From Sutcliffiella horikoshii (GTDB lineage: Bacteria > Bacillota > Bacilli > Bacillales > Bacillaceae_I): 64,000 nt of DNA. The translations under genes and the position numbers were made by a program. Under the pieces are notes generated by a model, which worked only from the letters and a program-made list of their open reading frames with translations, did no database searches and was not told the DNA's origin. This document shows positions 534-59,191 of this stretch, piece after piece (position 1 is the stretch's first letter; each line of letters begins with the position of its first letter). The stretch spans positions 3,612,666 through 3,676,665 of the forward strand of contig KV440964.1 of assembly GCA_001636495.1 (NCBI GenBank), read 5' to 3'.

Positions 534-657
534 TGTTGATTGAAGTGAAAGGCGCGCAGACTCCTGCGGGAGGAAGGGCCAGGGAGACCCCGCAGGCTTG
601 CCGAGGAGGCTCCCGGACCGCCCGCGGAAAGCGAAGCGCTTGGAACGAAAATCAACA
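534..657 (+). repeat. Structured intergenic repeat, subtype 1 (copy 1)
   Basis: Copy of the dispersed element described in the findings. Outer arms TGTTGATT / AATCAACA, second helix AAGGCGC / GCGCTT, hairpin CTCC/GGAG, inner helix GGGAG / CTCCC and a GGCTTGCC mini-hairpin. It lies between the convergent genes hmoB and liaR. Confidence 0.85.
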
Positions 658-686
658 GTGCATCAGCAAAATACCTAGAAAAACAG

Positions 687-722
687 TTAACCCGCCCTTT
701 TTTTAAGAAGAGCGGGTTTTCT
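687..722 (+). terminator. Rho-independent terminator after hmoB
   Basis: Stem AACCCGC / GCGGGTT around a T-rich loop, followed by TTTTCTTTATTT on the plus strand. It would end transcripts of hmoB and repeat copy 1. Confidence 0.7.
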
Positions 723-733
723 TTATTTAAGAC

Positions 734-1378
734 TTATTTCTTCTCACGGAGCACTCCATGTCTGTTGGCATAGATTGCTGCCTGCGTACGATCTGCCACT
801 TGCAACTTGCTCAATATATTGCTGACATGCGTTTTAACTGTCTTTACCCCAATGAAAAGTTCATCACTTATCTCCTGATTGGTCAACCCGTCTCCAAGGC
901 ACATGAGCACTTCAAGCTCCCGGTCTGTCAATTCATCATGTGGGAGCTTAGAAGGAGCCCGAAAGCGGTTCATCATTTTGCTTGCCACTTTCGGCTCAAT
1001 GACTGGCTCATTTTTCACAGCCTTCTCGATCGCCTTGATGATATCCTCCGCTCTAGCGGTTTTCAATAAATAGCTATATGCACCAGCTTCAATGGCAGGA
1101 AATACTTGTTCATCATCGAAATAGCTAGTTATGATAATTATTTTGCATTCCGGAAGAAATTTAATAATCTCTCGCGTCGCCTCAATTCCTGTGCCATTAT
1201 CCATTAGCAGGTCCATCAATATTACATCCGGCTTTTCCTTTCTTGCCAATTCAATAGCCGCCTGTCCACTGGAACCTTCGCCGACGATTTCAATAGTTGG
1301 CTCTGTAATTAAATAAGCCAATAGCCCTTTACGCACCATATCATGATCATCCACTACCGCGACTTTTATTCTATCCAT
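734..1378 (-). CDS. liaR: LiaR/VraR-type response regulator
   Basis: NarL/FixJ-family response regulator of 214 aa. The receiver domain spans residues 1-120 with acidic pair D10-D11, phospho-acceptor D56 (ILMD-LL) and the KTA switch lysine near 105. A LuxR-type HTH spans about 148-210 (LTDRELEVL, then IGVKTVKTHVSNIL). Its ATG directly abuts the stop of the kinase gene (no gap), so the pair is translationally coupled. By family knowledge LiaR answers cell-wall antibiotic stress signalled by LiaS and held in check by LiaF, which is encoded upstream in the same operon. Confidence 0.88.
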   Translation of the reverse strand: MDRIKVAVVDDHDMVRKGLLAYLITEPTIEIVGEGSSGQAAIELARKEKPDVILMDLLMDNGTGIEATREIIKFLPECKIIIITSYFDDEQVFPAIEAGAYSYLLKTARAEDIIKAIEKAVKNEPVIEPKVASKMMNRFRAPSKLPHDELTDRELEVLMCLGDGLTNQEISDELFIGVKTVKTHVSNILSKLQVADRTQAAIYANRHGVLREKK

Positions 1379-2455
1379 CTAGTTTTCCTCCTCTCTAATC
1401 GGGATATGGATTTCAATATGAGTCCCTTCCCCTGTTTTGGAGCGAATATTGAACTGCCCACCTATTTCTTCACAACGTTCTCTCATAGTATGGAGTCCAT
1501 AAGAAGCCTGTTTTTGTTGATTGATATCAAAACCCTTTCCATTATCACTAATAAATATGTATACATACTGGTTCCCTTTTTGATGCATGTCCAATTTGAC
1601 AATTGTGGCATCTGCGTGCCGAAGAATATTGGAAATGGCTTCTTGGATGATTCGGAAAAGATGATCTTCCGTTGCACTGGAGAGAACCTCGATTTCTTGG
1701 ATATCCTTTTGAAAAGTAATCGGTGTTCGATCTTCCAGTTCTTCTAGCAACTTATTGATTCCCACGCACAACGTATCGTTTGTCAATGAAACAGGTCTTA
1801 AATGGAGAAGAAGCGCTCTCATCTCACCTTGAGCCTGTGCCGCGATGGATGCTATATCCGTCAGTTGCTTTTTCGCTTCTTCCGGGTAGGCATCAAACAT
1901 CCTGATTGCAGCGGAAGACATGATACTAAGTGCAAACAGCTGCTGGCTTACAGAATCATGCAATTCCCTTGCCAACCGCTGCCGCTCTTCTATCGTAGCA
2001 GCATTATGGGCTTTAATGGCAAGCTCATTTTTTTCTTCGGCAAGCTTTTGCAATGATTTCACCTGATTTTGTATCTTATTGGCTAACTGGTTGATATCTT
2101 CCGTCAGCCTCCCTAGTTCATCCGTCTGTTCTACAGCTATTCTTTCCGAAAACTTCCCTCTCCCAAGTGTGGCAATGAAGGTCGAGATATCCTCCACACG
2201 TTTTTTCATATAGCCACTTTGCTTATATCCAAAATAAAGGCTGGTTACCGCCATGATGATAAAAGCAATCACGGTCAGCAACATACTCCATTGGACATTG
2301 ACGACAAAACCTTCAGGATAGAAAAGCAGTACACTCTGCAGAAAAATGAAGAAAAGAAACGCTGAAACAGCCGACACGACAACAAAGGAACGGATATACC
2401 AAAAACGCAAGCTTTCAATTTTCTTGCCTTTATCAGACCCGATCAATTCGAACAT
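1379..2455 (-). CDS. liaS: LiaS/VraS-type sensor histidine kinase
   Basis: Membrane histidine kinase, 358 aa. Two membrane helices (about 22-46 and 56-76) flank a very short extracellular segment, typical of intramembrane-sensing kinases. A HAMP-like region follows (about 77-130), then a HisKA_3 domain with phospho-acceptor H166 in LARELHDSVSQQL and an HATPase_c domain (SDNGKGFD; YGLHTMRER). The start overlaps the end of liaF by 23 bp. The partner regulator follows immediately. Length agrees with B. subtilis LiaS (about 360). Confidence 0.88.
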   Translation of the reverse strand: MFELIGSDKGKKIESLRFWYIRSFVVVSAVSAFLFFIFLQSVLLFYPEGFVVNVQWSMLLTVIAFIIMAVTSLYFGYKQSGYMKKRVEDISTFIATLGRGKFSERIAVEQTDELGRLTEDINQLANKIQNQVKSLQKLAEEKNELAIKAHNAATIEERQRLARELHDSVSQQLFALSIMSSAAIRMFDAYPEEAKKQLTDIASIAAQAQGEMRALLLHLRPVSLTNDTLCVGINKLLEELEDRTPITFQKDIQEIEVLSSATEDHLFRIIQEAISNILRHADATIVKLDMHQKGNQYVYIFISDNGKGFDINQQKQASYGLHTMRERCEEIGGQFNIRSKTGEGTHIEIHIPIREEEN

Positions 2456-3230
2456 CTCCTATTTTCATATCCAGCACGATATTGAGTTTTCTGGTTGCCT
2501 CTTCGTAATTTGGGGATTGATAAAATAGTTTGTTCCCCTTCCCTTCAGACGTATTTCCAAAGATATTCAACTGGCCAACTTTCACTTTCGCTGCAACTTT
2601 AATTGGCAGGTCCTCTGGAATGAGCATTTTCAAATCGGCAACCACGCCCTTAATTTGAATATTTGTTTCCTTATCGGGTATATATGCTTTACTGAAGTCG
2701 AAATAGTAATCCCCCACCACATTCCAGACAGTCAATGGCTCCACTGCCCAGTTCTGTTTATTCATCTTCATATCACCGATGGTTATCACTTTCTTAGAAC
2801 CCGCTGATTTTTCTTCCCGATGCTCCATCCTTTCCTCTGCTGAATCGAATAGATCATCAAAGTCGGTATCCCCTTTAGTAAAGGAAACTTTTACAGGACG
2901 CTTGTTTACAAAAAGCCTTACACCTAAGTAAATAATCAATAAGGGCCACAATTTCCAGAACATATGGAATTCAAATACTAGATATCCTGCTCTATCTAAC
3001 AACAGCAAACCGCCAAATGCTATTAAAAATACACTTAGGAAAAGAGCACGTTTATAATAGAAAATGGTATCCACCAAGAATTTTATGCCTAATAGTAAAA
3101 TCAGGACCGGAAAGTATGTGACAAAATACTCTTTTATTTCCAAGGAAATGACACCTATATTGACAAGCAACAACATGATTCCTATAAAAACAAAGATAAT
3201 GGCAATTATTTTTTGGTTGAAAGTTTTCAT
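2433..3230 (-). CDS. liaF: LiaF-type inhibitor of the Lia system
   Basis: 265-aa membrane protein with four N-terminal helices and a soluble C-terminal beta-rich domain ending MKIGDVRIDRV, typical of LiaF. By family knowledge LiaF keeps the LiaS kinase silent in unstressed cells. The frame is open upstream to 3293, but the ATG at 3230 has a well placed ribosome site (GGGAGG plus AGGA) and starts with the expected short hydrophobic N-terminus, so I use it. First gene of a liaFSR operon; no liaI or liaH gene lies beside it here. Confidence 0.85.
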   Translation of the reverse strand: MKTFNQKIIAIIFVFIGIMLLLVNIGVISLEIKEYFVTYFPVLILLLGIKFLVDTIFYYKRALFLSVFLIAFGGLLLLDRAGYLVFEFHMFWKLWPLLIIYLGVRLFVNKRPVKVSFTKGDTDFDDLFDSAEERMEHREEKSAGSKKVITIGDMKMNKQNWAVEPLTVWNVVGDYYFDFSKAYIPDKETNIQIKGVVADLKMLIPEDLPIKVAAKVKVGQLNIFGNTSEGKGNKLFYQSPNYEEATRKLNIVLDMKIGDVRIDRV

Positions 3231-3383
3231 TTTATTTCCTGAAGCCTCCCTTCTACTATTATTTGACACTGTTAGGAGCAATTCCTCCACCATACTGTTA
3301 GTTTACTAATTTCATTGGAGGAAGACCCCTATCCCCGGTCACTTTCTTTGTCCGTCTGGAGGCGGAAATTTAATGCTATAAGA

Positions 3384-3412
3384 AAAAAGCGCTGTGCGTA
3401 AGCTACACCGCT
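3384..3412 (-). terminator. Terminator overlapping the PAP2 stop codon
   Basis: On the minus strand AGCGGTGT / ACAGCGCT pair (one mismatch) around a short loop and are followed by TTTTTTC. The first arm lies within the last codons of the PAP2 gene. Confidence 0.55.
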
Positions 3413-4080
3413 TTCTTCTTGGCGATCATTGCCTGAATCCACTCATAAACCAATACTCCAAGAACCAAGCATATGTACCCCGCTGCATACCCAGCAAACA
3501 CATCGGAAGGATAATGGTAGTTCAAAAAGATCCTGCTTGTTCCGAGCAATGAAATAAACACCACTCCAAAGATAGAAATAACGAGCCTCTTTCTGCTTGA
3601 TTTTGTATAGGCTAGCGCAAAATATAATAGCAACCCATAGAAGAAAAGACCGACCATCGCGTGTCCACTAGGGAAACTAAGGCTTTCCGCACCAGGCCCT
3701 GTCATTGGTCTTTCACGTCCAGTATAATCTTTTAACCACTTATTCAGCTCATTGACGATAATGACTCCTCCCACAATCACGCCCATGGCTGCATAATCTC
3801 TCTTCATCCACCAAATAAGCCCTATCGATAATAGCATGATAATAATAACTCCAGTTTTATCACCAAGCATCGTGAATAGATGGAAAAAACTAACTAACAG
3901 ATCCGCTTCCAGACCATTTACTGCATTGCGAATCGCTTCATCAAACCCTATCGTATTTTGCCATACAATTTGTTGGAAGGACCAAATAAAGAATGCTCCA
4001 CAAAGAATGAACAACGTAATCCTTCTCCACTTTGTATCGTTTTTTTTATTGTCCATCTCCTGACCATAATCAGCTTGCAT
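3403..4080 (-). CDS. PAP2-family membrane phosphatase
   Basis: Integral membrane phosphatidic-acid-phosphatase-type enzyme (225 aa from this start). The three signature motifs are present in order: KDYTGRERP (K-x6-RP), FPSGH, and SRIFLNYHYPSD (SR-x5-H-x3-D). Substrate could be undecaprenyl pyrophosphate or a phospholipid phosphate; the sequence does not decide. The frame continues to 4107, but the ATG at 4080 lies 8 nt after AAAGGAG, better than the two ATGs further upstream. It sits just upstream of liaF on the same strand, separated by a terminator, so joint transcription is doubtful. Confidence 0.8.
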   Translation of the reverse strand: MQADYGQEMDNKKNDTKWRRITLFILCGAFFIWSFQQIVWQNTIGFDEAIRNAVNGLEADLLVSFFHLFTMLGDKTGVIIIMLLSIGLIWWMKRDYAAMGVIVGGVIIVNELNKWLKDYTGRERPMTGPGAESLSFPSGHAMVGLFFYGLLLYFALAYTKSSRKRLVISIFGVVFISLLGTSRIFLNYHYPSDVFAGYAAGYICLVLGVLVYEWIQAMIAKKKAV

Positions 4081-4212
4081 TCCAATCATCTCCTTTTGTA
4101 CCATCATGCCCCTCTTATTTTACTAAATTTATGAAAGTTATGACTATTCTTTTTTATCAGAGTCATATAGAATACTATATTAAATACAAATTTTCGAAAT
4201 GGGGAGCGCTAT

Positions 4213-5421
4213 ATGTTAAATAAGCTGAATCAACTGTTAGAAAATCGATATGATGAAATGGTAGAGATTAGACGTTATTTACACCAATTCCCTGAAGTTT
4301 CCTTTAAAGAGTTTCATACTGCAACCTACATAGCAGACTTTTATAAAAACTTGGGTATTGCCCACCAGTCAAATGTAGGCGGCAATGGTGTGGTGGCTAA
4401 AATTGCTGGTGCACGCCCGGGAAAAACGGTAGCACTTCGGGCAGACTTTGATGCTCTTCCCATCCAGGACGAAAAGGATGTGGAATATAAATCAAAAGTT
4501 CCGGGTGTCATGCACGCATGCGGACATGATGGGCACACTGCTACATTGCTCGTTCTTGCAAAATGCTTGAATGAATTGAAAGACGATCTGGAAGGTACTG
4601 TTGTCTTCATCCATCAGCATGCAGAAGAATATGCACCAGGCGGAGCGATTAACATGATCAACGATGGTTGTCTGGAGGGCGTGGATGTCATCTTCGGTAC
4701 CCATCTTTGGTCAGGTGTAGACCTTGGCACCATTCAGTACCGCGTCGGCCCTGTAATGGCTGCAGCAGACCGTTTTTCCATCAAAGTCCAGGGATCCGGT
4801 GGACATGGTGCACAACCGCATAAAACAAAAGATGCTGTTGTCACTGGCTCCCAACTTGTCCTTAATCTTCAGCAGATTGTCAGCAGAAGAGTGAATCCTG
4901 TCGACCCTGCTGTCATATCGGTCGGAACTTTCAAGGCAGAGAACGCATTCAATGTTATTGCCGACTCGGCTTATCTGGAGGGGACGGTTCGGACATTCAA
5001 CGATGAGGTGCGTGATCAGATTGAAGCAGAAATAGATGTGGTAGCTTCTTCCACATGCGCCCTTAACGGTTCAACATACGAATATAAATTTGATAGAGGC
5101 TATCCTGCTGTCGTCAATCATAAGGACGAGACAGAATATCTTGTCGATGTCGCATCCTCTGTCAAAGAGGTACAGGCGGTGACAGAAACCGAGCCGCATA
5201 TGGGGGGAGAGGACTTTGCCTATTATCTGAGACATGTCAAAGGGACCTTCTTCTTTACCGGAGCGAAGCCGGAAGGGGTGGAAGTGGCCTATCCACATCA
5301 CCACCCTAAGTTTGATATCCATGAAAAAGCCATGTTGGTTGCAGGTAAAACGTTAGGTGCAGCTACTGTTCTGTACCACCAGCATGAACAGGAAAAGCTT
5401 GTTCCTTCTCATCAATCCTAG
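4213..5421 (+). CDS. M20-family amidohydrolase (YhaA-like)
   Basis: 402-aa M20D metallo-amidohydrolase, related to N-acyl-amino-acid and hippurate hydrolases. Metal ligands are visible in ACGHDGHTA, HQHAEEYAPGG and EPHMGGEDFAYY, with a dimerisation-domain segment (GSGGHGAQPH). Start is supported by GGGGAG eight nt upstream. Its place next to ecsC matches yhaA in B. subtilis. Cytoplasmic and monocistronic; it ends at a bidirectional terminator shared with ecsC. The natural substrate cannot be read from sequence. Confidence 0.85.
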   Translation: MLNKLNQLLENRYDEMVEIRRYLHQFPEVSFKEFHTATYIADFYKNLGIAHQSNVGGNGVVAKIAGARPGKTVALRADFDALPIQDEKDVEYKSKVPGVMHACGHDGHTATLLVLAKCLNELKDDLEGTVVFIHQHAEEYAPGGAINMINDGCLEGVDVIFGTHLWSGVDLGTIQYRVGPVMAAADRFSIKVQGSGGHGAQPHKTKDAVVTGSQLVLNLQQIVSRRVNPVDPAVISVGTFKAENAFNVIADSAYLEGTVRTFNDEVRDQIEAEIDVVASSTCALNGSTYEYKFDRGYPAVVNHKDETEYLVDVASSVKEVQAVTETEPHMGGEDFAYYLRHVKGTFFFTGAKPEGVEVAYPHHHPKFDIHEKAMLVAGKTLGAATVLYHQHEQEKLVPSHQS

Positions 5422-5456
5422 ATATGTTTAACAAAATTAATTGCGTTAACAAACAA

Positions 5457-5495
5457 GGCGCCGGACTCCCTTCCAGGGGGAATCCGGCGTTTATT
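5457..5495. terminator. Bidirectional terminator, amidohydrolase / ecsC
   Basis: Perfect CGCCGGA / TCCGGCG arms around a short loop between two convergent genes, with T-rich sequence on the plus-strand side and AT-rich sequence on the other. Confidence 0.75.
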
Positions 5496-6216
5496 ATATG
5501 TCTATCCCTTTTTTCCGGAACATTCTCATGCGGTAACAGTTTTTTGCGGTCGTACCCAATTGATCAAGAAAATTATAGTTTGCATATGCGCCAACTACAG
5601 CTCCTAGTCCAGGAATCATCTGCAGCATCTTTATTAGATCGATGTGGTCACGGTACTCCTGCTGGAACACCCTCCAATCAAGCTCTATTGCTTTCTCTTT
5701 ATGCTCCTCCCAATTCTCTATATATCTCAGCACTTCTTTTCTTCTGGCATCACTGGAGAAGGCCAATTGAAAAATATATAAGACGAACACCCTCTCCTCA
5801 TAATTTTTCGTGTTATATCCATAGATGGCGGCCACTTCAAAGAGAAACTTCATTTTGATGGAGAGAAGAAGCGGAAAATCCGCCAACCCGAGCAATATCC
5901 CCCCTGCACCTGTTCCCGCCCCCTCCACAGCTGCGGTGCGTTTATATACGTTTGTTTTCTCCTGAATCCATTTTTCCTTTTCTTCTAAGGTCATGACGAC
6001 ATGCCCTTCATTCATTTTGGTCGTCAGATTGCTTCCGACAAGCGTCCCCTGCACCATCTTTTTGATGCTCTCCGTCATGACGGAATGAACCTTATCTGGA
6101 ATGTAGGTATTCATCTTATTTTGCGCACCCTTGGATAGCCGCTGGAACATGGTAGACTTTTTGGTCATCTGCATTTTCCACTTTCTGACCTCTTCCATTA
6201 CTTTCTGTTCGTACAA
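5494..6216 (-). CDS. ecsC: EcsC protein
   Basis: 240-aa EcsC-family protein, located as in the B. subtilis ecsABC region. Hydrophobic glycine-rich segments near the middle (GAGTGAGGILLGLADFPLLL) and the C-terminus (IPGLGAVVGAYANYNF) suggest membrane association. Biochemical role is unknown. The frame is open to 6270, but the TTG at 6216 has AAGGAG 8 nt upstream and gives a length close to the roughly 236 aa of B. subtilis EcsC, so I prefer TTG. Unlike a compact operon, about 510 bp with two repeat elements and a terminator separate it from ecsB, so it may be transcribed on its own. Confidence 0.82.
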   Translation of the reverse strand: MYEQKVMEEVRKWKMQMTKKSTMFQRLSKGAQNKMNTYIPDKVHSVMTESIKKMVQGTLVGSNLTTKMNEGHVVMTLEEKEKWIQEKTNVYKRTAAVEGAGTGAGGILLGLADFPLLLSIKMKFLFEVAAIYGYNTKNYEERVFVLYIFQLAFSSDARRKEVLRYIENWEEHKEKAIELDWRVFQQEYRDHIDLIKMLQMIPGLGAVVGAYANYNFLDQLGTTAKNCYRMRMFRKKGIDI

Positions 6217-6291
6217 TGGAAACACTCCTTGTATGGTTTGTGTCATTATTTTTATATATACGGGCATCAAGGGTAGTATGTTTCAATTTAA

Positions 6292-6330
6292 ATAAACCAG
6301 GCAAAAACCGCCCGGTCCTTTAATACTAAA
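6292..6330 (-). terminator. Terminator-like hairpin linked to repeat copy 2
   Basis: On the minus strand ACCGGGC / GCCTGGT pair around GGTTTTT, followed by TTATT. The same GGACCGGGCGG-type hairpin follows copies 4 and (decayed) 6, so it belongs to the subtype-2 repeat cassette. Confidence 0.6.
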
Positions 6331-6340
6331 TATTGATTTA

Positions 6341-6474
6341 GCCGCCGCTGTTACTTTCCGCAAATGGCTGCGCTTTCCACGGGGCGACCTTGAGCCTCCT
6401 CACTTCGTTGCGGGGTCTCAAGATTGTCGCTACTTCCCCGTAGGAGTCTCCGCCATTTGCTTCAATCCACAGCT
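6341..6474 (-). repeat. Structured intergenic repeat, subtype 2 (copy 2)
   Basis: Reading on the minus strand: AGCTGTGGATT, CAAATGGC / GCCATTTG helix, GCGAC / GTCGC helix, TTGAG / CTCAA helix. It forms a back-to-back pair with copy 3 between ecsB and ecsC. Confidence 0.85.
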
Positions 6475-6534
6475 ACAAACCAGTCATCTCAATTAAATAG
6501 TTTTTAGTTATCCTTTCGGTGAATGGCATTACCT

Positions 6535-6660
6535 TGTTGATTGTAGTGGAAGGTGCGCAGACTCCAGCGGGAGGAAGGGACATGGGAGACCCCGCAGGCT
6601 TGCCGAGGAGGCTCCCGGACCGCCCGCAGGAAAGCGAAGCGCCTGGAACGGAAATCAACA
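6535..6660 (+). repeat. Structured intergenic repeat, subtype 1 (copy 3)
   Basis: Arms TGTTGATT / AATCAACA, AGGTGCGC / GCGCCT (one wobble pair) and GGGAG / CTCCC. The 60-nt linker to copy 2 resembles the linker at 53509-53566. Confidence 0.85.
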
Positions 6661-6683
6661 GGACTTTAAACTTTCTTATCTTT

Positions 6684-6716
6684 TAAAATACACTCAATTG
6701 TATATACCGTTTGAGT
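6684..6716 (-). terminator. Terminator after ecsB
   Basis: Minus-strand arms ACACTCAA / TTGAGTGT followed by ATTTTAAAA, just past the ecsB stop. Confidence 0.65.
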
Positions 6717-6724
6717 GTTTCCCC

Positions 6725-17306: not shown

Positions 17307-17356
17307 TTCACCAAAAAGGAAGCGGCATGCTTAGTATTTTGTGAATAAAGTAACCT

Positions 17357-17540
17357 TGTTGATTGAAGTGGAAGGTGCGCAGACTCCTCGAAAATGCTAA
17401 CGCATTTTCTTCGTGCGATGAATCTACTGTCGAAGTCTTCCTTGTCCTGCGGGAGGAAGGGACATGGGAGACCCCGCAACGAAGTGAGGAGGCTCCCGGA
17501 CCGCCCGCGGAAAGCGAAGCACCTGGAACGGAAATCAACA
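17357..17540 (+). repeat. Structured intergenic repeat, subtype 1 with 60-nt insert (copy 5)
   Basis: Outer arms TGTTGATT / AATCAACA, helix AGGTGC / GCACCT and inner GGGAG / CTCCC. A 60-nt insertion (17389-17448) sits in the CTCC/GGAG hairpin loop and has its own hairpins (GAAAATGC / GCATTTTC; CTTCG / CGAAG). Between prsA and yhaL, convergent. Confidence 0.85.
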
Positions 17541-17556
17541 TGTACGATAAAATAGT

Positions 17557-17589
17557 AAAAAGGAAGCGGCATCCCCGCTTCCTTTTTGC
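17557..17589. terminator. Bidirectional terminator prsA / yhaL
   Basis: AAAAAGGAAGCGG / CCGCTTCCTTTTT perfect arms with a 4-nt loop, between two convergent genes. Confidence 0.85.
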
Positions 17590-24536: not shown

Positions 24537-24670
24537 CGCTGTTCCTTTCCGCAAATGGCTACGCTTTCCACGGGGCGACCTTGAGCCTCCTCGGGCTATG
24601 CCCTGCGGGGTCTCAAGATTGTCGCTTCTCCCCCCGTAGGAGTCTCCGCCATTTGCTCCAATCCACAGCT
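24537..24670 (-). repeat. Structured intergenic repeat, subtype 2 (copy 6)
   Basis: Minus-strand copy: AGCTGTGGATT, GCAAATGG / CCATTTGC, GCGAC / GTCGC, TTGAG / CTCAA, with a GGGC-ATA-GCCC apical mini-hairpin that replaces GGC-TT-GCC of copy 1. Paired with copy 7. Confidence 0.85.
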
Positions 24671-24759
24671 ATAATGCTCAAGTAAGTTTGGTTAATGGCT
24701 ACTTCAGTCACTTTTTAGTAGAGATAATTTTCTTTCTTCTCAGTTGAATGAAACCATCT

Positions 24760-24884
24760 AGTTGATTGTAGTGAAAGGCGCGCAGACTCCCGCGGGAGGA
24801 AGGGACAGGTAAGACCCCGCAACGGAGTGAGGAGGCTTACGGACCGCCCGCAGGAAAGCGAAGCGCCTGAAACGGAAATCAACA
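24760..24884 (+). repeat. Structured intergenic repeat, subtype 1 (copy 7)
   Basis: GTTGATT / AATCAAC, AAGGCGC / GCGCCT and inner helix GTAAG / CTTAC, which differs in both arms from GTGAG / CTCAC of copy 10. Confidence 0.85.
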
Positions 24885-24915
24885 GAATTATGACATTCTT
24901 ATTCTTTAAAAAAGC

Positions 24916-32095: not shown

Positions 32096-32201
32096 TTGCA
32101 CGTCATTCCTTCCTTTTTTGCCCATCTTTCAGGCATGCTAGTGACCAGTATAACAAACCTGCCAGCGTCATTCAAACCAAAAGGGTAAAGCTGCGCTAAC
32201 G

Positions 32202-32332
32202 CCTGTAGTTTTCCGTTTCAGGTATTCGCTTTCCGCGGGGCGGTGCTTGAGCCTCCTCGGCTTCGCCTGTGGGGTCTCAAGTCTACCGCTACCTCCCGCC
32301 GGAGTCTCATACCTTCCACTTCAAACTACAGG
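32202..32332 (-). repeat. Structured intergenic repeat, subtype 3 (copy 8)
   Basis: Minus-strand copy: CCTGTAGTTT / AAACTACAGG outer arms, AGGTAT / ATACCT, GCGGT / ACCGC, TTGAG / CTCAA, GGC-GAA-GCC apical hairpin. Between yheB and yheA. Confidence 0.85.
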
Positions 32333-43866: not shown

Positions 43867-43873
43867 AGCTGAT

Positions 43874-44064
43874 TTGTCCGAAGATTTTTGATTTTTGACC
43901 GAAGTTTTCCCAATCTTGACCGAAGTTTTGTGAAAGTTGACCGAAGTTTTGGGATATTTGACCGAACCCCATGTAAAAGATGACCGTAGTCCGTGGATAT
44001 TTGTCCGAAACCTTTACAAATAACAGCCCTTTTTGTCCAAAGATAGAAGTAAAGTGTCCGAACC
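43874..44064. repeat. 21-nt tandem repeat array
   Basis: Units TTG(A/T)CCGAAG-N11 begin at 43874, 43895, 43916, 43937, 43958, 43980, 44001, 44033 and 44054; the period is 21 nt nearly throughout. The first 14 nt of each unit are conserved, the rest varies. No gene is supported here. The minus strand stays open because 21 is a multiple of three, giving an artefactual heptad-repeat ORF. Confidence 0.85.
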
Positions 44065-46634: not shown

Positions 46635-46635
46635 T

Positions 46636-51598: not shown

Positions 51599-51670
51599 AA
51601 AGATGTATTTTATATAATACTTTATAACTCGTCATCATATATAATAAAGATGTATTTAAAATATATCTTT
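51599..51670 (+). promoter_or_regulatory. Two NsrR-like operator palindromes upstream of hmp
   Basis: AAAGATGTATTT / AAAATATATCTTT at 51646-51670 is a near-perfect palindrome, and AAAGATGTATTTTA...TAATACTTT at 51599-51623 is a weaker one. They resemble the NsrR operator of hmp as I remember it from B. subtilis (ATGTATTTTAAATACAT type). Confidence 0.55.
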
Positions 51671-51689
51671 AAAGGGGAGGCATTTTTAG

Positions 51690-52922: not shown

Positions 52923-52931
52923 CGTTTATGG

Positions 52932-52965
52932 GGAGCTTGCCGAAAGTGGCAGGCTCTTTTTTTCG
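52932..52965 (+). terminator. Terminator after hmp
   Basis: GAGCTTGCC / GGCAGGCTC arms followed by T7. Confidence 0.8.
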
Positions 52966-52981
52966 TAGGAATTGGTTAATT

Positions 52982-53112
52982 GCCGCTGTTCCTTTCCGCA
53001 AATGGCTGCGCTTTCCGCGGGGCGACCTTGAGCCTCCTCGTTTCACTGCGGGGTCTCAATATTGTCGCTACTCCCCCACTGGAGTCTACGCCATTTGCTC
53101 CAATCCACAGCT
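52982..53112 (-). repeat. Structured intergenic repeat, subtype 2 (copy 9)
   Basis: Minus strand: AGCTGTGG, GCAAATGG / CCATTTGC-type helix, GCGAC / GTCGC, TTGAG / CTCAA. Start of a repeat-rich 840-bp gap between hmp and thiE. Confidence 0.85.
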
Positions 53113-53167
53113 GAAAAATATTTGAAATGCTTGGTGAAATCCTTCTTGAGGTGTTTTCTACGGCAGG

Positions 53168-53420
53168 GAGGTCTTTTCTAACCAGGATGAAAACCTTTCT
53201 ACTTCGATATTCCCGTTAGAGAGGTCTTCATAACTCAGATGAAAACCTCTCCACTTCGATTTTCATGGCAGGGAGGTCTTCATAACTCAGATGAAGACCT
53301 CTCCACTTCAATTTTTATGCCAGAGAGGTCTTCATAACTCAGATGAAGACCTCTTCACTTCAGTTTTCACGGCAGAGAGGTCTTCATAACCAGGATGAAG
53401 ATATTGCTACTCGCCCAACG
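53168..53420. repeat. 52-bp tandem repeat with hairpin in each unit
   Basis: GAGGTCTT recurs at 53168, 53221, 53273, 53325 and 53377 (period 52-53). In the best units arms GAGGTCTTCAT and ATGAAGACCTC pair over 11 bp around AACTCAG. No ORF supported. Units 3 and 4 are the most alike, units 1 and 5 the most decayed. Confidence 0.85.
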
Positions 53421-53482
53421 GACAAGGAAGGCTACGGCAGCGATACATCGCACAAAGGTAATGCGCATTTTCAACAAGTCTT

Positions 53483-53508
53483 CGCTATTTGCTCCAATCC
53501 ACAGCTAG
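53483..53508 (-). repeat. Truncated subtype-2 repeat end
   Basis: The sequence GCTATTTGCTCCAATCCACAGCT equals the terminal part of subtype-2 copies, but the rest of the element is missing upstream. It stands where a full subtype-2 partner of copy 10 would be expected. Confidence 0.65.
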
Positions 53509-53566
53509 AAACCTGTCACCTCTGTTAGATAGTCTTTACTCATCCTTTCGGCGAATGGTATCTCCT

Positions 53567-53691
53567 TGTTGATTGTAGTGGAAGGCGCGCAGACGCCCGC
53601 GGGAGGAAGGGACAGGTGAGACCCAGCACCGGAGGGAGGAGGCTCACGGACCGCCCGCAGGCAAGCGAAGCGCCTGGAACGGAAATCAACA
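53567..53691 (+). repeat. Structured intergenic repeat, subtype 1 (copy 10)
   Basis: TGTTGATT / AATCAACA, AAGGCGC / GCGCCT and inner GTGAG / CTCAC. The CTCC arm has become CGCC, indicating some decay. Confidence 0.85.
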
Positions 53692-53715
53692 GAATTATAT
53701 ACTTTCTTCTTCTTA

Positions 53716-53752
53716 TAAAAAAACCCCCGCTCCAAGGTCAGAGCGGGGGACT
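53716..53752. terminator. Terminator after thiE
   Basis: CCCCCGCTC / GAGCGGGGG arms; an A7 stretch before the plus-strand arm becomes a T-run on the minus strand, after thiE. Confidence 0.75.
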
Positions 53753-53816
53753 AAATACAAACATGTTATAAAGTAAATGGTGATTTCATTATATCATTGA
53801 TTTGAAGAGATAGGGA

Positions 53817-54464
53817 TTAATTTTTGACAATGTTGTGAATACGACCTAGTTCTTTCGCTGCGAAAGAGGGAGAAACAGCTTTTGAGATAGCGGAAATGAC
53901 GGCTACTCCATCGCTGCCCGCCTCCAAAACCTCCACTGCATTTTCAACAGAAATACCGCCAATCCCCACAATGGGTATCGTCATGCCAACCTTCCGAATC
54001 TGCCTGATTACTTCAGACCCCTTCACTTCCCTGATGTCCTTTTTTGTGGTGGTGAAGTACATTGGGCCTACCCCTATGTAATCTGCTCCTGTGCGTACGG
54101 CTTCTGTAGCCTCTTCCATCGTATGACAGGAGACACCGATAACCATTCCAGACGCTAGCCGCTCTTTCACAAAGGAAATAGCAGTATCCTCCTGCCCGAT
54201 ATGTACGCCGTCCGCCTCCACCTCTAGCGCCAGCTCGAAATCGTCATTTACGATAAACGGAACAGCATGCTTATGACAAATCGCCTTAAGTTCCCTTGCT
54301 AACTTTAGCTTTTCCGCACCTGTCTTAGCGCCACTCCCTTTTTCACGAAATTGGAAAAGAGTGATTCCTCCGTTGATGGCTTCCTCTAGCACCACCCTCG
54401 GATCGCGTCCGTCGCAATCTGGACTGCCCATGACAAAATATACGTTCAACCATTCCCGTTTCAT
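53817..54464 (-). CDS. thiE: Thiamine-phosphate synthase ThiE
   Basis: 215-aa TIM-barrel enzyme joining HMP-PP and thiazole phosphate to thiamine phosphate. FQFREKGSG, NDDFELALEV, DGVHIGQEDT, DYIGVGPMYFTTTKKD and PIVGIGGIS are the usual ThiE blocks (the TTTKKD stretch separates ThiE from TenI). The ATG at 54464 overlaps the thiD stop as ATGA; the longer frame to 54635 is a thiD shadow. Last gene of the operon. Confidence 0.9.
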   Translation of the reverse strand: MKREWLNVYFVMGSPDCDGRDPRVVLEEAINGGITLFQFREKGSGAKTGAEKLKLARELKAICHKHAVPFIVNDDFELALEVEADGVHIGQEDTAISFVKERLASGMVIGVSCHTMEEATEAVRTGADYIGVGPMYFTTTKKDIREVKGSEVIRQIRKVGMTIPIVGIGGISVENAVEVLEAGSDGVAVISAISKAVSPSFAAKELGRIHNIVKN

Positions 54465-55264
54465 ACCCCTACACCAGCTTTCCGGTAAGCCCAATGATTG
54501 GTCGGACCATGGCCTGCACCTATGCCAAGCTCGTTCTCTATGGCATGATGAATAAATCGTTTCGCCGTTAGGATGGCATGTTCGACTGTACAACCTTTCG
54601 CAAGACTCGCGGCGATGGCCGCTGCAAAGGTACAACCAGTACCATGGGTATGCTTTGTATCAATGCGCAGGCTTTTCAGTTCACGAAAGCTGCTGCCATC
54701 ATATACAAGGTCGACCAACTCGTCCCCTTCCCCATGTCCACCTTTGATGACAACATTAGAGGATCCTAGCTTATGAAGCATTCTCGCCGCTTCCTTCCTC
54801 CTGTCCAGTGTGTCTAAATTCATTTCCGTCAGTACTTCCGCCTCCGGAATGTTTGGCGTTGTAACGGTCGCAAGTGGGAGCAGTTTTTCACGAATGGCCC
54901 TTATCGCATCGTCCTGCAAAAGCTTTGCCCCACCTTTTGCAATCATGACCGGATCCACCACCACATTTCCCCAGCCATACTCCTTTATTTTGTTTGCAAC
55001 AGACTCTATAATGACACCACTGAAAAGCATTCCGGTCTTTAGAGCATTCGGCTGTAAATCCACTGCAATGGAGTGCAATTGCTCCAGCACCATGTCCAGA
55101 GGAATCGGATAGACACTTTGAACCCCTAAGGTGTTTTGGGCGGTCAAGGCGGTGATCGCCGACATGCCAAACACGTCCAACTCCTGAAACGTTTTGATAT
55201 CCGCCTGGATGCCGGCTCCTCCGCCACTGTCGGAACCTGCTATCGTCAATACTTTTGCTACCAT
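54461..55264 (-). CDS. thiD: HMP/HMP-P kinase ThiD
   Basis: 267-aa ribokinase-fold enzyme phosphorylating hydroxymethylpyrimidine twice. N-terminal GSDSGGGAGIQADIKTF, VVVDPVMIAKGGAKLL, VTPNIPEAEVL-like segment and the anion hole DTKHTHGTGCTFAAAI are all present. Overlaps thiE by 4 bp. Part of the TPP-riboswitch operon. Confidence 0.92.
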   Translation of the reverse strand: MVAKVLTIAGSDSGGGAGIQADIKTFQELDVFGMSAITALTAQNTLGVQSVYPIPLDMVLEQLHSIAVDLQPNALKTGMLFSGVIIESVANKIKEYGWGNVVVDPVMIAKGGAKLLQDDAIRAIREKLLPLATVTTPNIPEAEVLTEMNLDTLDRRKEAARMLHKLGSSNVVIKGGHGEGDELVDLVYDGSSFRELKSLRIDTKHTHGTGCTFAAAIAASLAKGCTVEHAILTAKRFIHHAIENELGIGAGHGPTNHWAYRKAGVGV

Positions 55265-55279
55265 AGATTTCTCAGTCCC

Positions 55280-56308
55280 TTATCCAAAATATCGGTGATA
55301 CAATGTTTTCGCTCTAGCAATCTCTTTTGTCCCGTGAACTAGCACTCTTCCATCCTTGAAAGCTACAAGGCGATGGTCCTCCACCTGGAAGGACATCAGA
55401 TATGGGTTGCCTTCCACGCTGACACCCTGGGCTTCAAGCTGTTCCTTAAGTGCCACAAGCCCTCTTCCTTCACTCCATGATTCTGGTGGCCTTATTTGTA
55501 CGGAATCTCTTCCGCATAGGACGGCTGTTTTCGTCTGGTTTTCAAAAGAAAGATGGGGATATGTCCGATTTTCCCCACAGCTCTGGCATTGTAAATCTTT
55601 CAATTTCTCCACATTCAAGGATACATACTGGTTCTTCCACAAATCGAAGGATACAAGTTTACGATTGCAGTCTCTGAGGTTACCAGATAGAATTTTCAAC
55701 GCCTCGGCAACTTGATGCGCAACCACCATCCCGACAGCTGGGGCAATGATTCCCGCTGTATCGCAGGTTGCCCCGCCTAGTGGAACTGTTTTCAACAAGC
55801 ACTGCAAACATGGTGTTTCCCCCGGAAGGATGGCAAAGCAAATACCGTAACTTCCTACACATGCCCCGTATATCCATGGAGTGGCATATTTTTGACATAC
55901 ATCATTCATGATCATGCGGATGTCAAAATTATCGGTCGCATCAAGCAGCAGGTCGAACCTTTCTCTTTTCATCAGCGCCTCCAGGCTATCTGCCGTTACA
56001 TCTGCTACCCGTGCATCGACTTCTACTTCCGAATTGATTAGCTTTAACCTTTCCTTTGCAGCCACCGCTTTCGGGAGCTTTTCATGTGCATCCTTTTCGC
56101 TATAGAGCTGTTGGCGCTGCAGGTTGCTCCACTCCACATAATCCCTGTCTATAATCGTGAGCTTCCCGACTCCCGCTCTGACCAGCGCCTCGGCATTGCC
56201 TGTGCCCAATGCCCCTGCACCGATGAGCAATACGTGTTTCTCACGGATGCTTTGCTGTCCGTCCACTCCTATTGGTTCGAATAGCGTTTGACGTGAATAG
56301 CGTTCCAT
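55280..56308 (-). CDS. thiF: ThiF, ThiS adenylyltransferase
   Basis: 342-aa E1-like enzyme that adenylates the C-terminal Gly of ThiS. Nucleotide fold LLIGAGALGTGNAEALVRAGVG, IDRDYVEWSNLQRQ; Cys pairs (CLQC and CQSC) could bind zinc. A C-terminal rhodanese-like or ThiS-like tail beyond residue 265 is short. Start overlaps the thiG stop by one base. Confidence 0.88.
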   Translation of the reverse strand: MERYSRQTLFEPIGVDGQQSIREKHVLLIGAGALGTGNAEALVRAGVGKLTIIDRDYVEWSNLQRQQLYSEKDAHEKLPKAVAAKERLKLINSEVEVDARVADVTADSLEALMKRERFDLLLDATDNFDIRMIMNDVCQKYATPWIYGACVGSYGICFAILPGETPCLQCLLKTVPLGGATCDTAGIIAPAVGMVVAHQVAEALKILSGNLRDCNRKLVSFDLWKNQYVSLNVEKLKDLQCQSCGENRTYPHLSFENQTKTAVLCGRDSVQIRPPESWSEGRGLVALKEQLEAQGVSVEGNPYLMSFQVEDHRLVAFKDGRVLVHGTKEIARAKTLYHRYFG

Positions 56309-57075
56309 TACCCCACACTCATTCCTTCAGTTGGGCTGCTGGCTGTCGCGTAACGTTTCTTTTCCATTCTGCCTGCCTCATACCCGAGACGTCCGGCTTC
56401 AATCGCGAGTTTCATAGCCTCAGCCATTTTTACAGGATTCTTCGCTGCTGATACGGCTGTATTTAATAGTACTCCATCCGCACCAAGCTCCATCGCCTTA
56501 GCTGCATCTGCTGGCGAACCAATTCCTGCATCCACGATGACCGGAACATTTGCTTGCTCGATGATAAAGCCCAGATTCAACTCATTGATGATTCCTTGTC
56601 CAGATCCGATCGGGGAAGCTCCAGGCATAATGGCATGGGCACCAAGCTCTTCTAGTTTCCTTGCCAGCACCACATCATCTGATGTATATGGCAGCACTAT
56701 AAAGCCTTCTTTTAAAAGCTCTTCCGTTGCCTTCAACGTTTCCACCGGATCTGGCAGTAGTGTTTTCCAGCAGCCGATCACTTCCACTTTGATCATGTCA
56801 CAAAGACCGGAAGCCTTAGCAAGCTTCGCAATTCTCACAGCCTCTTCCGCTGTTTTAGCTCCAGCCGTGTTTGGCAGTAGCGTATATTTCGCCAAATCCA
56901 ACTTTTCCAGAAAGTTCGGTTGACTTGCTTCAAAGATATTCATCCTTCTTACCGCAAACGTCAGAATTTCCGAACCTGAAACATCCACCGCCTGCTTTTG
57001 GGTATCAAAGTCCGGGTACTTCCCTGTCCCTAGTAATAAACGAGAATTAAATGTGTATGAACCAATTTTCAACAT
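56308..57075 (-). CDS. thiG: Thiazole synthase ThiG
   Basis: 255-aa TIM-barrel enzyme forming the thiazole ring from DXP, dehydroglycine and ThiS-thiocarboxylate. Schiff-base lysine in [16 protein letters not shown], plus [20 protein letters not shown] and the C-terminal [15 protein letters not shown] one nt after the thiS stop. Confidence 0.93.
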
Positions 57076-57076
57076 A

Positions 57077-57283
57077 TTAACCGCCTCCTACGAAATGTAC
57101 TAATTCTAATTGATCGCCGTCTAGTACGCTCTCTGCGTTGTGACGATCCTTTTGTAAAATCTCTTTGTTCTTTTCCACAATGACTACTTTCTGATCCAAT
57201 TGAAAATGCTCCAACAGTTCGGATACGGTCGTGACAGTATCCGGGATTTCAATGGAGTCCCCATTAATGAAAACCTTCATCAT
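57077..57283 (-). CDS. thiS: Sulfur carrier ThiS
   Basis: 68-aa ubiquitin-fold protein ending VHFVGGG, whose last Gly becomes the thiocarboxylate. The ATG at 57283 (AAAGGGGTG upstream, within the thiO end) is chosen; the next ATG (57280) is equally possible. Confidence 0.92.
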
Positions 57284-57287
57284 CTCT

Positions 57288-58415
57288 TCACCCCTTTGCA
57301 TGCTCTTTTACTCTATCTAACCTGAAGTCTTCTAAGTAACCAGGTACAGGCTCTCCCTGAATCATTTTCGCTACCAGTTTCCCGGTTATCGGGGAGAGCA
57401 GGATTCCATTTCGATAATGCCCTGTAGCGATAACAAGATTCTTGTAATTCGGATGTTGCCCAAGATAGGGAAGGCCATCCCCTGTTTGCGGGCGTATCCC
57501 TGACCATGAGCGTTCAAAAGTGGCACTCTTAACGGCCGGAAGCACTCTGGCCGCCGCCTCCATCAACTGAAAAAGCCCTCCTACCGTAACATTCTCGGAA
57601 AATGTGTTAGAGATCATCGTTGCCCCGATGATCAACCTGTTTTCACTCTTTGGAACAAGGTAGCAGGTCTCCGTAAAAACGGTACTTGAGAGCAATGGTC
57701 GATCTGTGATGACAGAAAAGCACTCCCCCTTTACTGGGTAAGCGGGCAATGTCATCCCGCACTCCTCTAGCACCCTTTTACTCCAGGCACCTGCAGCAAC
57801 GACTACATGTTCCCCATCAAACGTTCCGTTGCTAGTTTCAACACCTTTAACGACACTTCCATCCATAATCAGCGAATACACCTCTACATACTCTTTCACT
57901 TCCGCTCCAAGGTTGACTGCCGATTTTGCAAATGCATGGGTAAGTCGTGCCGGATTGACATGGCCATCCATGGGAATGTCCATCGCACCCATCAAAGCAT
58001 CCGAAAGTTGCCCCTCCCTTTCTGCTACTTGTTCCGGAGCAAGCCATTCTGCCCGTTCCCCTAACTTTTGTTGAAAAGCAATCGAGCTTTTTAAATGCCG
58101 CGCCTCTTCATCATTCATTGCAAGCTTTAGCATTCCTTTCTGAACAAGCTCTATGTCGATACCCGAGTGCTCTTTTAACTCGTATTGAAGCGAGGGAAAC
58201 ATAGCCCTGCTTTCCTTGGCAATAGTAAAAAGGGCACCTTCTTCCGTCACTTCCACTTGTGCTCCAAGCATACCTGCAGCTGCACTAGATGCCTTACCTG
58301 CCAACTTCTCTCTCTCCAAAAGCAATACACGTTTCCCTTCACGGGCAAGATAGTAGGCAATGGAACAGCCATTAACACCACCACCAATAATAATTACGTC
58401 ATAGCTTTTATTCAT
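57288..58415 (-). CDS. thiO: Glycine oxidase ThiO
   Basis: 375-aa FAD enzyme producing dehydroglycine for ThiG. N-terminal dinucleotide fold IIGGGVNGCSIAYYLAREG and the C-terminal GIRPQTGDGLPYLG / ATGHYRNGILLSP segments are typical of DAAO-type glycine oxidases. Overlaps tenI by 4 bp (ATGA). Confidence 0.9.
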   Translation of the reverse strand: MNKSYDVIIIGGGVNGCSIAYYLAREGKRVLLLEREKLAGKASSAAAGMLGAQVEVTEEGALFTIAKESRAMFPSLQYELKEHSGIDIELVQKGMLKLAMNDEEARHLKSSIAFQQKLGERAEWLAPEQVAEREGQLSDALMGAMDIPMDGHVNPARLTHAFAKSAVNLGAEVKEYVEVYSLIMDGSVVKGVETSNGTFDGEHVVVAAGAWSKRVLEECGMTLPAYPVKGECFSVITDRPLLSSTVFTETCYLVPKSENRLIIGATMISNTFSENVTVGGLFQLMEAAARVLPAVKSATFERSWSGIRPQTGDGLPYLGQHPNYKNLVIATGHYRNGILLSPITGKLVAKMIQGEPVPGYLEDFRLDRVKEHAKG

Positions 58416-59026
58416 CCAATCTCCTCCTTTTCAGCAAGCAAAACTGCTTGAAAGGCTTTAGCTGCATGAACCTTATCTTCTGCTTCCATAATTCCCGACA
58501 TGACTGCTACCCCTCCAGTCCCGGAAACCTTTAGCTCCTGAAGTTTATCAGGAGTTATCCCGCCTATGGCAATAACAGGGATCTTCAATGACCTTGTTAG
58601 CTTCCTTAATTCCATCAGACCTTTAGGGATCAACCCCTCCTTGGAGGAAGTAGAATAGATATGGCCATATAGGATAAAATCAGCCCCGTCCATTTCTGCC
58701 TGTATTGCCTCTTCGTAACTATGTACCGACTTACCTACCCTTAATTCAGGAAAATTTCTGCGAATCTCGGAAACTCCAAGACTGTGATAGGCCAGTTGAA
58801 CTCCTCCGACATTGAGTACATGAGCTACATCGACACGGTCGTTTATGATGATCTTCCCTGGACGAACCCCAGATCTAATCAGTTCATTAACTAGTTCAAA
58901 GACCTCCTGCGCACTTCGGTGTTTTTCTCTTACATGGATGAAATCCACTGACTCATGGACTTCACTCAAGATGGCAACAAGCTCTTCCTTCGTTTTTTTA
59001 CCATCCGTAATAAGATGCAATTGCAA
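58412..59026 (-). CDS. tenI: Thiazole tautomerase TenI
   Basis: 204-aa ThiE-like barrel. It lacks the pyrophosphate-binding TTTKKD block of ThiE (here YSTSSKEGL), as TenI proteins do, and has HVREKHRS and VIAIGGITPDKL. TenI converts the thiazole product to its aromatic form. Start is TTG at 59026. First gene of the operon behind the riboswitch and repeat copy 11. Confidence 0.85.
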   Translation of the reverse strand: MQLHLITDGKKTKEELVAILSEVHESVDFIHVREKHRSAQEVFELVNELIRSGVRPGKIIINDRVDVAHVLNVGGVQLAYHSLGVSEIRRNFPELRVGKSVHSYEEAIQAEMDGADFILYGHIYSTSSKEGLIPKGLMELRKLTRSLKIPVIAIGGITPDKLQELKVSGTGGVAVMSGIMEAEDKVHAAKAFQAVLLAEKEEIG

Positions 59027-59063
59027 AGATCCTCACCCTTTTTTTCATGTTTATTCAGATTTC

Positions 59064-59191
59064 CCTGTAGATTGTAGTGCAAGGTGTGAGACTCCTAAGG
59101 GAGATAGCGGTAGCTTGAGACCCCGCAACGAAGTGAGGAGGCTCAAGCATCGCCCCTAGGAAAGCGAACACCTGGAACGGAAATCTACAGG
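59064..59191 (+). repeat. Structured intergenic repeat, subtype 3 (copy 11)
   Basis: CCTGTAGATT / AATCTACAGG outer arms, AGGTGT / ACACCT second helix, TTGAG / CTCAA inner helix. It lies between the riboswitch terminator and tenI, that is in the transcribed leader, in antisense orientation to the operon. Confidence 0.85.

Follow-up and report, generated by a model that had tools for sequence, protein, structure and literature searches.

The window, a 64,000-nt stretch of the Sutcliffiella horikoshii genome, carries a structured repeat in its intergenic regions, and the question is whether this repeat is an RNA element or a form of mobile DNA. A sequence-only reading had described eleven copies with covarying helices and had taken them to be under selection for an RNA or single-stranded DNA fold, as in REP/RAYT-type mobile elements or a 3'-end RNA element.

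Hairpin copies in the window

Searching the window up to an E value of 1 with a covariance model that drew on 43 copies, including two window copies, recovered all eleven repeats at the positions first described, with E values from 1e-31 to 4e-13 (Table 1). For copy 5 the model scores only positions 17414-17543, because an extra 57-nt module follows GACTCC. Similar modules were seen by eye at the same place in the left arm of copies from other genera, e.g., L054, L074 and L142. No Rfam model matched the repeat at its gathering score, and the weak tsr24 match at copy 11 reached 21.6 bits, below the cut-off of 50. The claim that all copies avoid genes holds mostly: in wider samples, a mechanically called open reading frame of at least 90 aa encloses 4 of 56 copies and 5 of 100; the copy set labeled other genera in these gene-context counts also includes Sutcliffiella loci.

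Table 1. Positions of hairpin copies and associated features in the window.
Feature	Positions	Strand	Basis or remark
Hairpin copy 1 (type A outer arms)	532..660	+	Covariance model, 112.6 bits
Hairpin copy 2 (type B)	6346..6473	-	Covariance model, 99.8 bits
Hairpin copy 3 (type A)	6533..6663	+	Covariance model; (-)(+) pair with copy 2, 59 nt between
Hairpin copy 4 (type B)	9800..9927	+	Covariance model
Left copy of 16-bp duplication AAAAAGGAAGCGGCAT flanking copy 5	17313..17328	.	Sequence comparison
Hairpin copy 5 (type A) with extra module	17357..17543	+	Covariance model
Optional 57-nt module, left arm of copy 5	17388..17444	+	After GACTCC, then second TCC
Right copy of 16-bp duplication AAAAAGGAAGCGGCAT flanking copy 5	17557..17572	.	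First half of terminator-like stem
Hairpin copy 6 (type B)	24537..24669	-	Covariance model
Hairpin copy 7 (type A)	24758..24887	+	Covariance model; pairs with copy 6
Hairpin copy 8 (type A)	32201..32332	-	Covariance model, highest-scoring match
Hairpin copy 9 (type B)	52984..53111	-	Covariance model
Truncated twelfth copy, left arm and similar module only	~53419..53511 (approximate ends)	-	Sequence
Hairpin copy 10 (type A)	53565..53694	+	Covariance model
Hairpin copy 11 (type A)	59064..59192	+	Covariance model; gene-start side of TPP riboswitch terminator (- strand)

Covariation and fold of the hairpin

The core of the repeat is an imperfect hairpin of ~130 nt with conserved internal loops. 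Its helices were confirmed to covary: paired changes exceed those of both shuffled and slid controls, among the window copies as well as among 117 copies taken from named loci. In the alignment of the 11 window copies, 93.4% of 468 cells were paired (shuffled mean 82.6%, slid 34-44%), both sides changed in 19 of 44 pairs (shuffled 10.8), and the covariation score was 0.295 vs. 0.116. None of 500 shuffles matched the values for paired cells, two-sided pairs or score, while 10 of 500 matched the count of further pair types. The 117 model matches in the 95 named loci searched, mostly from other genera, had pairing in 89.9% of 4809 cells (vs. 75.1% shuffled and 36-44% slid), with change on both sides in 36 of 44 pairs and in 671 cells vs. 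172; here 0 of 500 shuffles matched on any of the five measures. Both alignments were fitted to the covariance model. A MAFFT alignment of the 43 copies, with the structure derived from the same alignment, gave 91.6% vs. 81.2% paired cells, 29 pairs vs. 18.0 and a score of 0.282 vs. 0.106. All three sets of statistics ignore kinship among the copies.

The 43 copies were hand-picked from 59, which came from 89 non-redundant sequences, and these from the 127 of 182 that hold both arm motifs; conservation of the arm motifs is therefore overstated. Core matches in Gemmatimonadales (L064) and in a MAG (L126) lack, by eye, the rest of the hairpin and were excluded from the alignments. Relative to shuffles, DNA folding of single copies gave z values of -2.2 to -6.2 (five copies, one strand each), and RNA folding gave -2.4 to -7.2 (seven strands of four copies, three copies on both strands). 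The non-complementary internal loops GACTCC, GAGACCCCGCA, GAGGAGGCT and GGAAAGC are nearly fixed while the helices flanking them vary.

Presence and absence at orthologous sites

Copy 4 is absent at the orthologous site of L167, L171 and L173, where the spacer is 43-72 nt. No copy was found at the orthologous site of copy 5 in the eight relatives compared. Copies 6 and 7 are both present in G148 and G173 and both absent in G302, G056, G092, G301 and G010, as well as in G121, where one of two comparisons mapped oddly. The site of copy 11 is empty in G148, G302 and G121, and in G173 it holds a separate, nested insertion in the opposite orientation. The orthologous place of copy 8 is occupied in 7 relatives, i.e., all that could be mapped. 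Gap values in the comparisons for copies 5 to 8 and 11 assume 40-nt margins. As many sites hold a copy in some relatives but not in others, the repeat family is mobile DNA, and the empty sites uphold this part of the sequence-only reading.

Unit classes and an IS1182-family element

At least three types of short unit contain the hairpin core and are distinguished by their terminal inverted repeats (TIRs). Class A units have the TIR CAGNSTGTNGACAAA and a duplicated terminator hairpin of 18-25 nt, class B units (~213 bp) have GAGGCCACTGAAAAA and an 8-9-bp duplication of a hairpin loop, and class C units (usually ~185 bp) have GGCTNTGTTAAA and an 8-bp AT-rich target duplication. All three classes thus combine TIRs and target duplications on short non-coding units, as MITEs do. 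In class C, the duplication was perfect (8/8) in 9 of 29 units and at least 7/8 in 13 of 29, compared with 0 of 145 controls. An autonomous partner was not found for class C, and ISL3 is not supported as a candidate, being present in 1 of the 10 genomes tested. The ends of class A match an IS (L258, L267) with an IS1182-like transposase domain, and L258 has no hairpin match.

Among eight small class B units chosen by synteny, six sit in hairpin tips with both halves recognised and one with a single half, while the eighth site was unrecognised; seven of the eight lie within another hairpin copy. A script detected the target duplication in only 3 of these 8. The class B set drops units with identical internal sequence, so that five IS copies in G173 count once, their five sites being read by eye. 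Any TIR signal was seen in 6 of 57 sampled host copies, recognised ends being absent from the other 51, and in 27 of 105 copies in named loci. Neither TIRs nor target duplications were seen for most copies or for the window copies tested. With so few copies giving a TIR signal, a route via such units is only presumed for most copies.

The ends of class B are shared with an autonomous IS of ~1.87 kb, whose enzyme is a DDE transposase of the IS1182 family, scoring 358.9 bits with NF033551 (cut-off 270). In this IS the hairpin lies between the left TIR and the IS's own upstream terminator, in the orientation opposite to the transposase. A Pfam search of 16 genus genomes, blind to hairpins, gave 29 loci, of which 7 have perfect TIR pairs at IS length. 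All seven have perfect 8-9-bp duplications, and six contain the hairpin (the hairpin search covered 17 of the 29 loci, including all seven). Each of these six sits in another hairpin copy, five with both halves readable by eye and L260 with one; the sole hairpin-free IS sits in a terminator-like loop. Class B IS copies lie in hairpin loops, and nearly all of these loops, in the genomes seen, are part of a further hairpin copy. On named plasmids, IS1182 relatives that lack the hairpin carry the same TIR or a variant of it and, by eye, 8-9-bp duplications in loops.

Spread across genomes

The host genome has 201 exact matches to the core and none to the reversed pattern. As the sequence-only reading had expected, similar repeats are common in other Bacillaceae, and 164 of the 299 genomes sampled from the order carry the core. 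Copy number ranges from 0 to 201 across genomes of this one order and is uneven within genera. G137 and G162 have the same number of copies, but at different listed places and with different tips, and they are not a near-identical pair. No match to the repeat was found in phages, while 16 plasmid records match, including one copy common to plasmids of B. subtilis, Priestia and Paenibacillus; these records did not help to define exact insertion points. No published description of the family was recognised in the literature searched at the level of titles, abstract beginnings and some passages.

Weighing the alternative explanations

At paired positions, the ratio of G·T to A·C is 1.8 in the repeats vs. 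5.7 in a small TPP-riboswitch yardstick, and GNA triloops are favoured at the hairpin tips. Scarce G·T and GNA tips together hint at a fold made in DNA; of the proposed RNA or single-stranded DNA fold, the fold itself is real, with DNA the likelier of the two. Palindrome correction via template switching could also account for low G·T. If template switching in palindromes and gene conversion between copies rewrite both arms, the covariation could be mostly mechanical, with little selection on the fold; few wobble intermediates, mosaic copies (e.g., L024, by eye) and orthologous copies whose tips are replaced wholesale by other perfect palindromes are consistent with this. However, homogenisation of the arms alone would erase non-complementary internal loops, and these are nearly fixed in copies that were partly chosen for those motifs, which makes a mainly mechanical origin unlikely. 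A functional structured RNA (3' UTR element, attenuator or sRNA) that multiplied by duplication and was retained for the host would fit the strong covariation, the invariant loops, the position at gene 3' ends and the loci occupied in every mapped relative. The 3'-end proposal also agrees with the avoidance of divergent intergenic regions (3 of 152 placed copies) and with an orientation bias of 75 copies with codirectional genes vs. 38. This bias is not predicted by a purely DNA reading; the bias relative to the replication strand is weak (permutation p 0.03 for the best two-point scan of 150 scored host copies). Presence at other orthologous sites varies, however, G·T is rare, and Rfam gave no match at gathering score. 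In addition, the distinct departures from Watson-Crick pairing in seven orthologous groups comprise 20 G·T, 7 A·C and 40 other single mismatches, besides 4 double mismatches and 18 switches to another Watson-Crick pair. Collectively, these results oppose the 3'-end RNA element, and a structured RNA is highly improbable.

In a REP/RAYT-type system, a Y1 (HUH) transposase would move the hairpin as single-stranded DNA, which the DNA-type tips would suit. The search for such a gene, suggested by the sequence-only reading, found one Y1 gene in the host genome, which is RAYT-like (NF047646 of NCBIfam, 77.2 bits, cut-off 80). Among 11 genus genomes compared, the eight with an orthologue of at least 88% identity have 130-201 copies and the three without a close orthologue have 12, 35 and 65. 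Across the order, genomes with at least 40 copies include 28 with a RAYT-like match and 2 without, compared with 150 and 119 below 40 copies (Fisher p 2e-5, kinship ignored). Within-genus contrasts are mixed, and copy numbers reach 40 in genus g45 and 25 in g23, neither of which has a match. RAYT-like matches do not occur wherever the repeat is abundant, as they are missing from 10 of the 55 genomes with at least 20 copies. The repeats do not flank RAYT-like genes, including the host's own: 40 regions around such genes (341 kb) contain no exact core, where 5.0 were expected from copy numbers, and one covariance model match below E 0.01. Moreover, classes A-C bear TIRs and target duplications, which HUH enzymes are not known to make. 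The absence of the core near RAYT-like genes and the copy-rich genomes that lack them speak against RAYT as the mobiliser, and the REP/RAYT claim is quite unlikely to be right.

Proposed origin of the repeats

The best explanation as a whole, including its inferred steps, is that the repeats are probably fixed, decaying copies of small non-autonomous MITE-like mobile DNA elements. Class B units would be internal-deletion derivatives of the ~1.87-kb IS1182-family IS, and copies that lack TIRs, the window copies among them, may be old copies with eroded ends or products of another class. The hairpin would matter as folded DNA, either as a cruciform or as a single strand, with intact-fold copies being those that move or get hit. 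When carried by an element, it may serve as a portable landing pad and so direct insertions to non-coding sequence. More tentatively, and with somewhat less than even confidence, we suggest that IS1182-type transposases recognise the hairpin as a portable target of folded DNA, so that insertions gather in older copies, that the fixed internal loops are the binding site of a structure-specific protein with attC-like logic, and that three or more kinds of transposon have acquired this module. If the landing-pad reading is true, this bacterial mobile element would limit the harm it does by aiming its insertions at its own relatives. The family also warns that strong compensatory change need not imply RNA, and it reaches ~200 copies in a genome and over half of the genomes sampled, yet has no Rfam match.

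Comparison with known systems

Integron attC sites are imperfect hairpins in which structure outweighs sequence. The hairpin described here resembles them in this respect, the comparison covering the repeats alone.

IS1272/TnSha1, IS1182-family elements of staphylococci, target DNA stem-loops, often terminators (PMC4923244, PMC5678879), and thus share both transposase family and stem-loop target with the class B IS. IS1272 reportedly produces no target duplication, the stem-loop being deleted or replaced, whereas the class B IS duplicates 8-9 bp of the loop and carries a conserved hairpin, copies of which are its usual target. Stem-loop repeats of Bacillaceae include Bcr1 and the B. halodurans Bhal-1 (74 bp, 36 copies; PMC2267715). 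Like our family they are intergenic folded repeats, and on this comparison, by description only, Bhal-1 could be the same family. REP/BIME palindromes associated with RAYT are likewise intergenic, may act as single-stranded DNA and are targets of insertion sequences (PMC1525189), but REPs measure 20-40 bp (PMC3733652) vs. ~130 nt for the hairpin, for which no linkage to RAYT was found. Bacterial MITEs are similarly short and non-coding, with TIRs, target duplications and high copy number; the repeats described here differ in that one covarying core of ~130 nt is shared across three TIR classes.

Fold of the hairpin and its copies

The covariance model R1 (132 positions, 44 pairs) recovers 11 hairpin copies in the window at E values up to 1, the same number as the repeat family described in the sequence-only reading; a left-arm fragment at about 53419-53511 lies outside its reported matches. 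The overall architecture is a single long hairpin with an outer helix at its base and a variable tip. Inward of the outer helix, a two-pair helix with purine-rich internal loops on both sides is followed by the second helix, by GACTCC facing GGAAAGC, and by a G+C-rich helix, while GAGACCCCGCA facing GAGGAGGCT is almost invariant below the tip. That reading had also claimed that the helices covary between copies, and this is borne out, as covariation exceeds both controls among the 11 window copies, in 117 matches from 95 named loci (alignment A4), and in a MAFFT alignment of 43 copies (A2). Single copies fold better than their own shuffles. Copy 1 is the weakest, with 4/200 shuffles equally good in DNA folding, and 0/200 (+ strand) and 4/200 (- strand) in RNA folding.

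Spread across genomes

The host genome contains 201 exact matches to the conserved core and 0 to the reversed pattern. R1 gives at least 150 copies there, as 150/150 scored candidates match at E 1e-18 or better; this is a floor because only 150 of the 1047 first-look candidates were scored. The core was found in 164/299 genomes and 65/116 genera of the order, with 0 reversed matches in each row. Named carriers among the matches listed include Sutcliffiella, Neobacillus, Peribacillus, Priestia, Metabacillus, Cytobacillus, Rossellomorea, Oceanobacillus, Halobacillus, Lysinibacillus, Sporosarcina and Planococcus. A copy also lies in a zwf-gnd gene cluster on plasmids of B. subtilis, Priestia megaterium and Paenibacillus urinalis (L285, L286, L287), near a Tn3-family transposase in 2/3 of these records. 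The Rfam search of the copies returned 0 families at gathering score, and the literature search, core strings included, gave no recognised description of the family in the portions of text available; Bhal-1 (PMC2267715) could belong to it.

Mobility and gene context

The hairpin family moves, as seen from presence and absence between relatives. Over 20 to 60 kb from each of seven relatives (mutually 85-93% identical there), plus 40 kb of G010, some copies are occupied in every mappable relative and many others in only part of them. The site orthologous to copy 11, next to a TPP riboswitch terminator, is empty in three relatives, and the relative G173 has there a separate insertion in opposite orientation, itself nested. 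Copy 5 has a 16-bp duplication on both flanks, which is half of a terminator-like stem. One of the three head-to-head pairs in the window was gained or lost as a unit, and comparable pairs occur in L062, L048, L106 and L123. At the place corresponding to the 21-bp array, G173 and G148 have similar TTGACCGAA runs.

Features discussed, with coordinates
Feature	Location	Strand	Remark
Head-to-head (-)(+) hairpin pairs, type B then type A (outer-arm kinds)	window 6346-6663, 24537-24887, 52984-53694		spacing 59, 88, 453 nt
TPP riboswitches	window 59290-59396 and 63082-63188	-	copy 11 just beyond terminator of first
52-bp tandem array	window 53154-53401		4.7 copies, 84% matches; between copies 9 and 10, adjoining truncated twelfth copy
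21-bp tandem array TTGACCGAAGTTTT...	window 43872-43966
Palindrome GGGTCAGACCC, two occurrences	window 28322 and 50990		inside 45-nt repeat, 71% identical
Two adjacent direct repeats of ~93 nt	window 15929-16138		77% identical; probably paralogous short genes
RAYT-like Y1 transposase	L195:1465-2061 (G000:C1:823739-824335)		sole Y1 match of host genome; slightly under NCBIfam cut-off

Genes were called as mechanical ORFs. Among copies whose two neighbours were both called, divergent intergenic regions hold 1/56 in the host and 2/96 in named loci. Copies between codirectional genes follow the direction of those genes in 33 cases against 13 (host) and in 42 against 25 (named loci). Terminator-like stems within 100 nt number 14 on the 3' side and 13 on the 5' side of host copies (n=56; displaced controls 4 and 1), and 28 and 15 for named-locus copies (n=100; controls 5 and 10), where the excess on the 5' side is weak.

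Mobiliser and nature of the fold

The sequence-only reading had offered REP/RAYT-type mobile elements as one parallel and a 3'-end RNA element as another. When tested, RAYT was not supported as the general mobiliser, and the 3.3-kb locus around the host's RAYT-like gene contains 0 hairpin copies. A role within Sutcliffiella is still conceivable; in this genus, hairpin copy number and presence of a close RAYT orthologue go together across 11 genomes.

Whether the fold acts as RNA kept for the host or as DNA during mobility was judged from mismatches, tips and orthologues. G·T and A·C account for 152 and 86 of 4809 paired cells in A4, 61 and 28 of 2218 in a further alignment (A3), and 34 and 21 of 1847 in A2. 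The TPP riboswitch of the same genus has 91 G·T and 16 A·C among 696 cells, in 6 and 2 types versus 45 and 40 in A4, although it is a weak yardstick (30 related sequences, 24 pairs). The loop is 3 nt long in 57 of the 134 distinct tips; 36 of these loops are GNA, 31 of them closed by C-G, and tetraloop tips are GNRA in 4/18. DNA minihairpins of the C-GNA-G type have exceptional stability. Many pairs are broken and tips are exchanged wholesale in the seven orthologous groups. Taken together, these observations speak for a fold that serves as DNA while the element moves, rather than for an RNA retained for the host's benefit; template switching may instead account for part of the covariation.

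Three kinds of unit

Short units carrying the hairpin fall into classes A, B and C by their terminal inverted repeats (TIR). In 29 class C units, from genomes searched with TIR plus hairpin start, the target duplication matches at 8/8 in 9, at 7/8 or better in 13 and at 6/8 or better in 20 (control 0/145 at 7/8). The hairpin lies inside 28/34 class C TIR pairs over all loci retrieved, most of them chosen for the hairpin, and inside 5/6 class A pairs. In 4/6 class A pairs a terminator hairpin is duplicated over 18-25 nt, and three of these four have the hairpin inside. Of eight class B units in a synteny-selected set, six sit in hairpin tips with both halves recognised, one with one half, and one in an unrecognised site that by eye is a decayed copy; the script found an 8-9-bp duplication in 3/8. 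Seven class B units from other loci, mostly fetched for containing hairpin copies, gave two in tips with both halves, four with one half and one elsewhere, with a duplication in 5/7. Recognised ends are absent from most copies (51/57 host, 78/105 in named loci).

Probable parent IS of class B

The transposase of the probable class B parent is IS1182. Searching 16 genomes of the genus with PF05598 gave 29 places in 7 genomes, and seven of these loci have perfect TIR pairs at IS length, all with perfect 8-9 bp target duplications. In 6/7 the hairpin lies upstream of the transposase (five in G173, one in G010). By eye, the order in these elements is TIR, hairpin, terminator, an AT-rich stretch that is promoter-like (TATAAT in L265) and gene; in hairpin-free relatives the TIR is followed by terminator, promoter-like TATAAT and gene. 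For five of the six hairpin carriers, inserted in tips, the two halves of the outer hairpin can both be read, and for L260 one half can; the hairpin-free L270, whose genome has 12 core matches, is inserted in a terminator-like loop.

Of 11 plasmid records with relatives, four complete elements and one partial were retrieved (Priestia, Metabacillus, Peptoclostridium, Enterococcus). They have identical or variant TIR, and the hairpin was found in 0/5 of these loci. By eye, each of the four complete elements lies in a hairpin loop of which 8-9 bp are duplicated, L386 being least clear. Since these elements lie in loops without carrying the hairpin, loop targeting looks general for the class B IS group and hairpin carriage is special to some members. 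IS1272, of the IS1182 family, is described in two reports as targeting stem-loops without target duplication (PMC4923244; PMC5678879), whereas the class B IS studied here combine a loop target with an 8-9-bp duplication.
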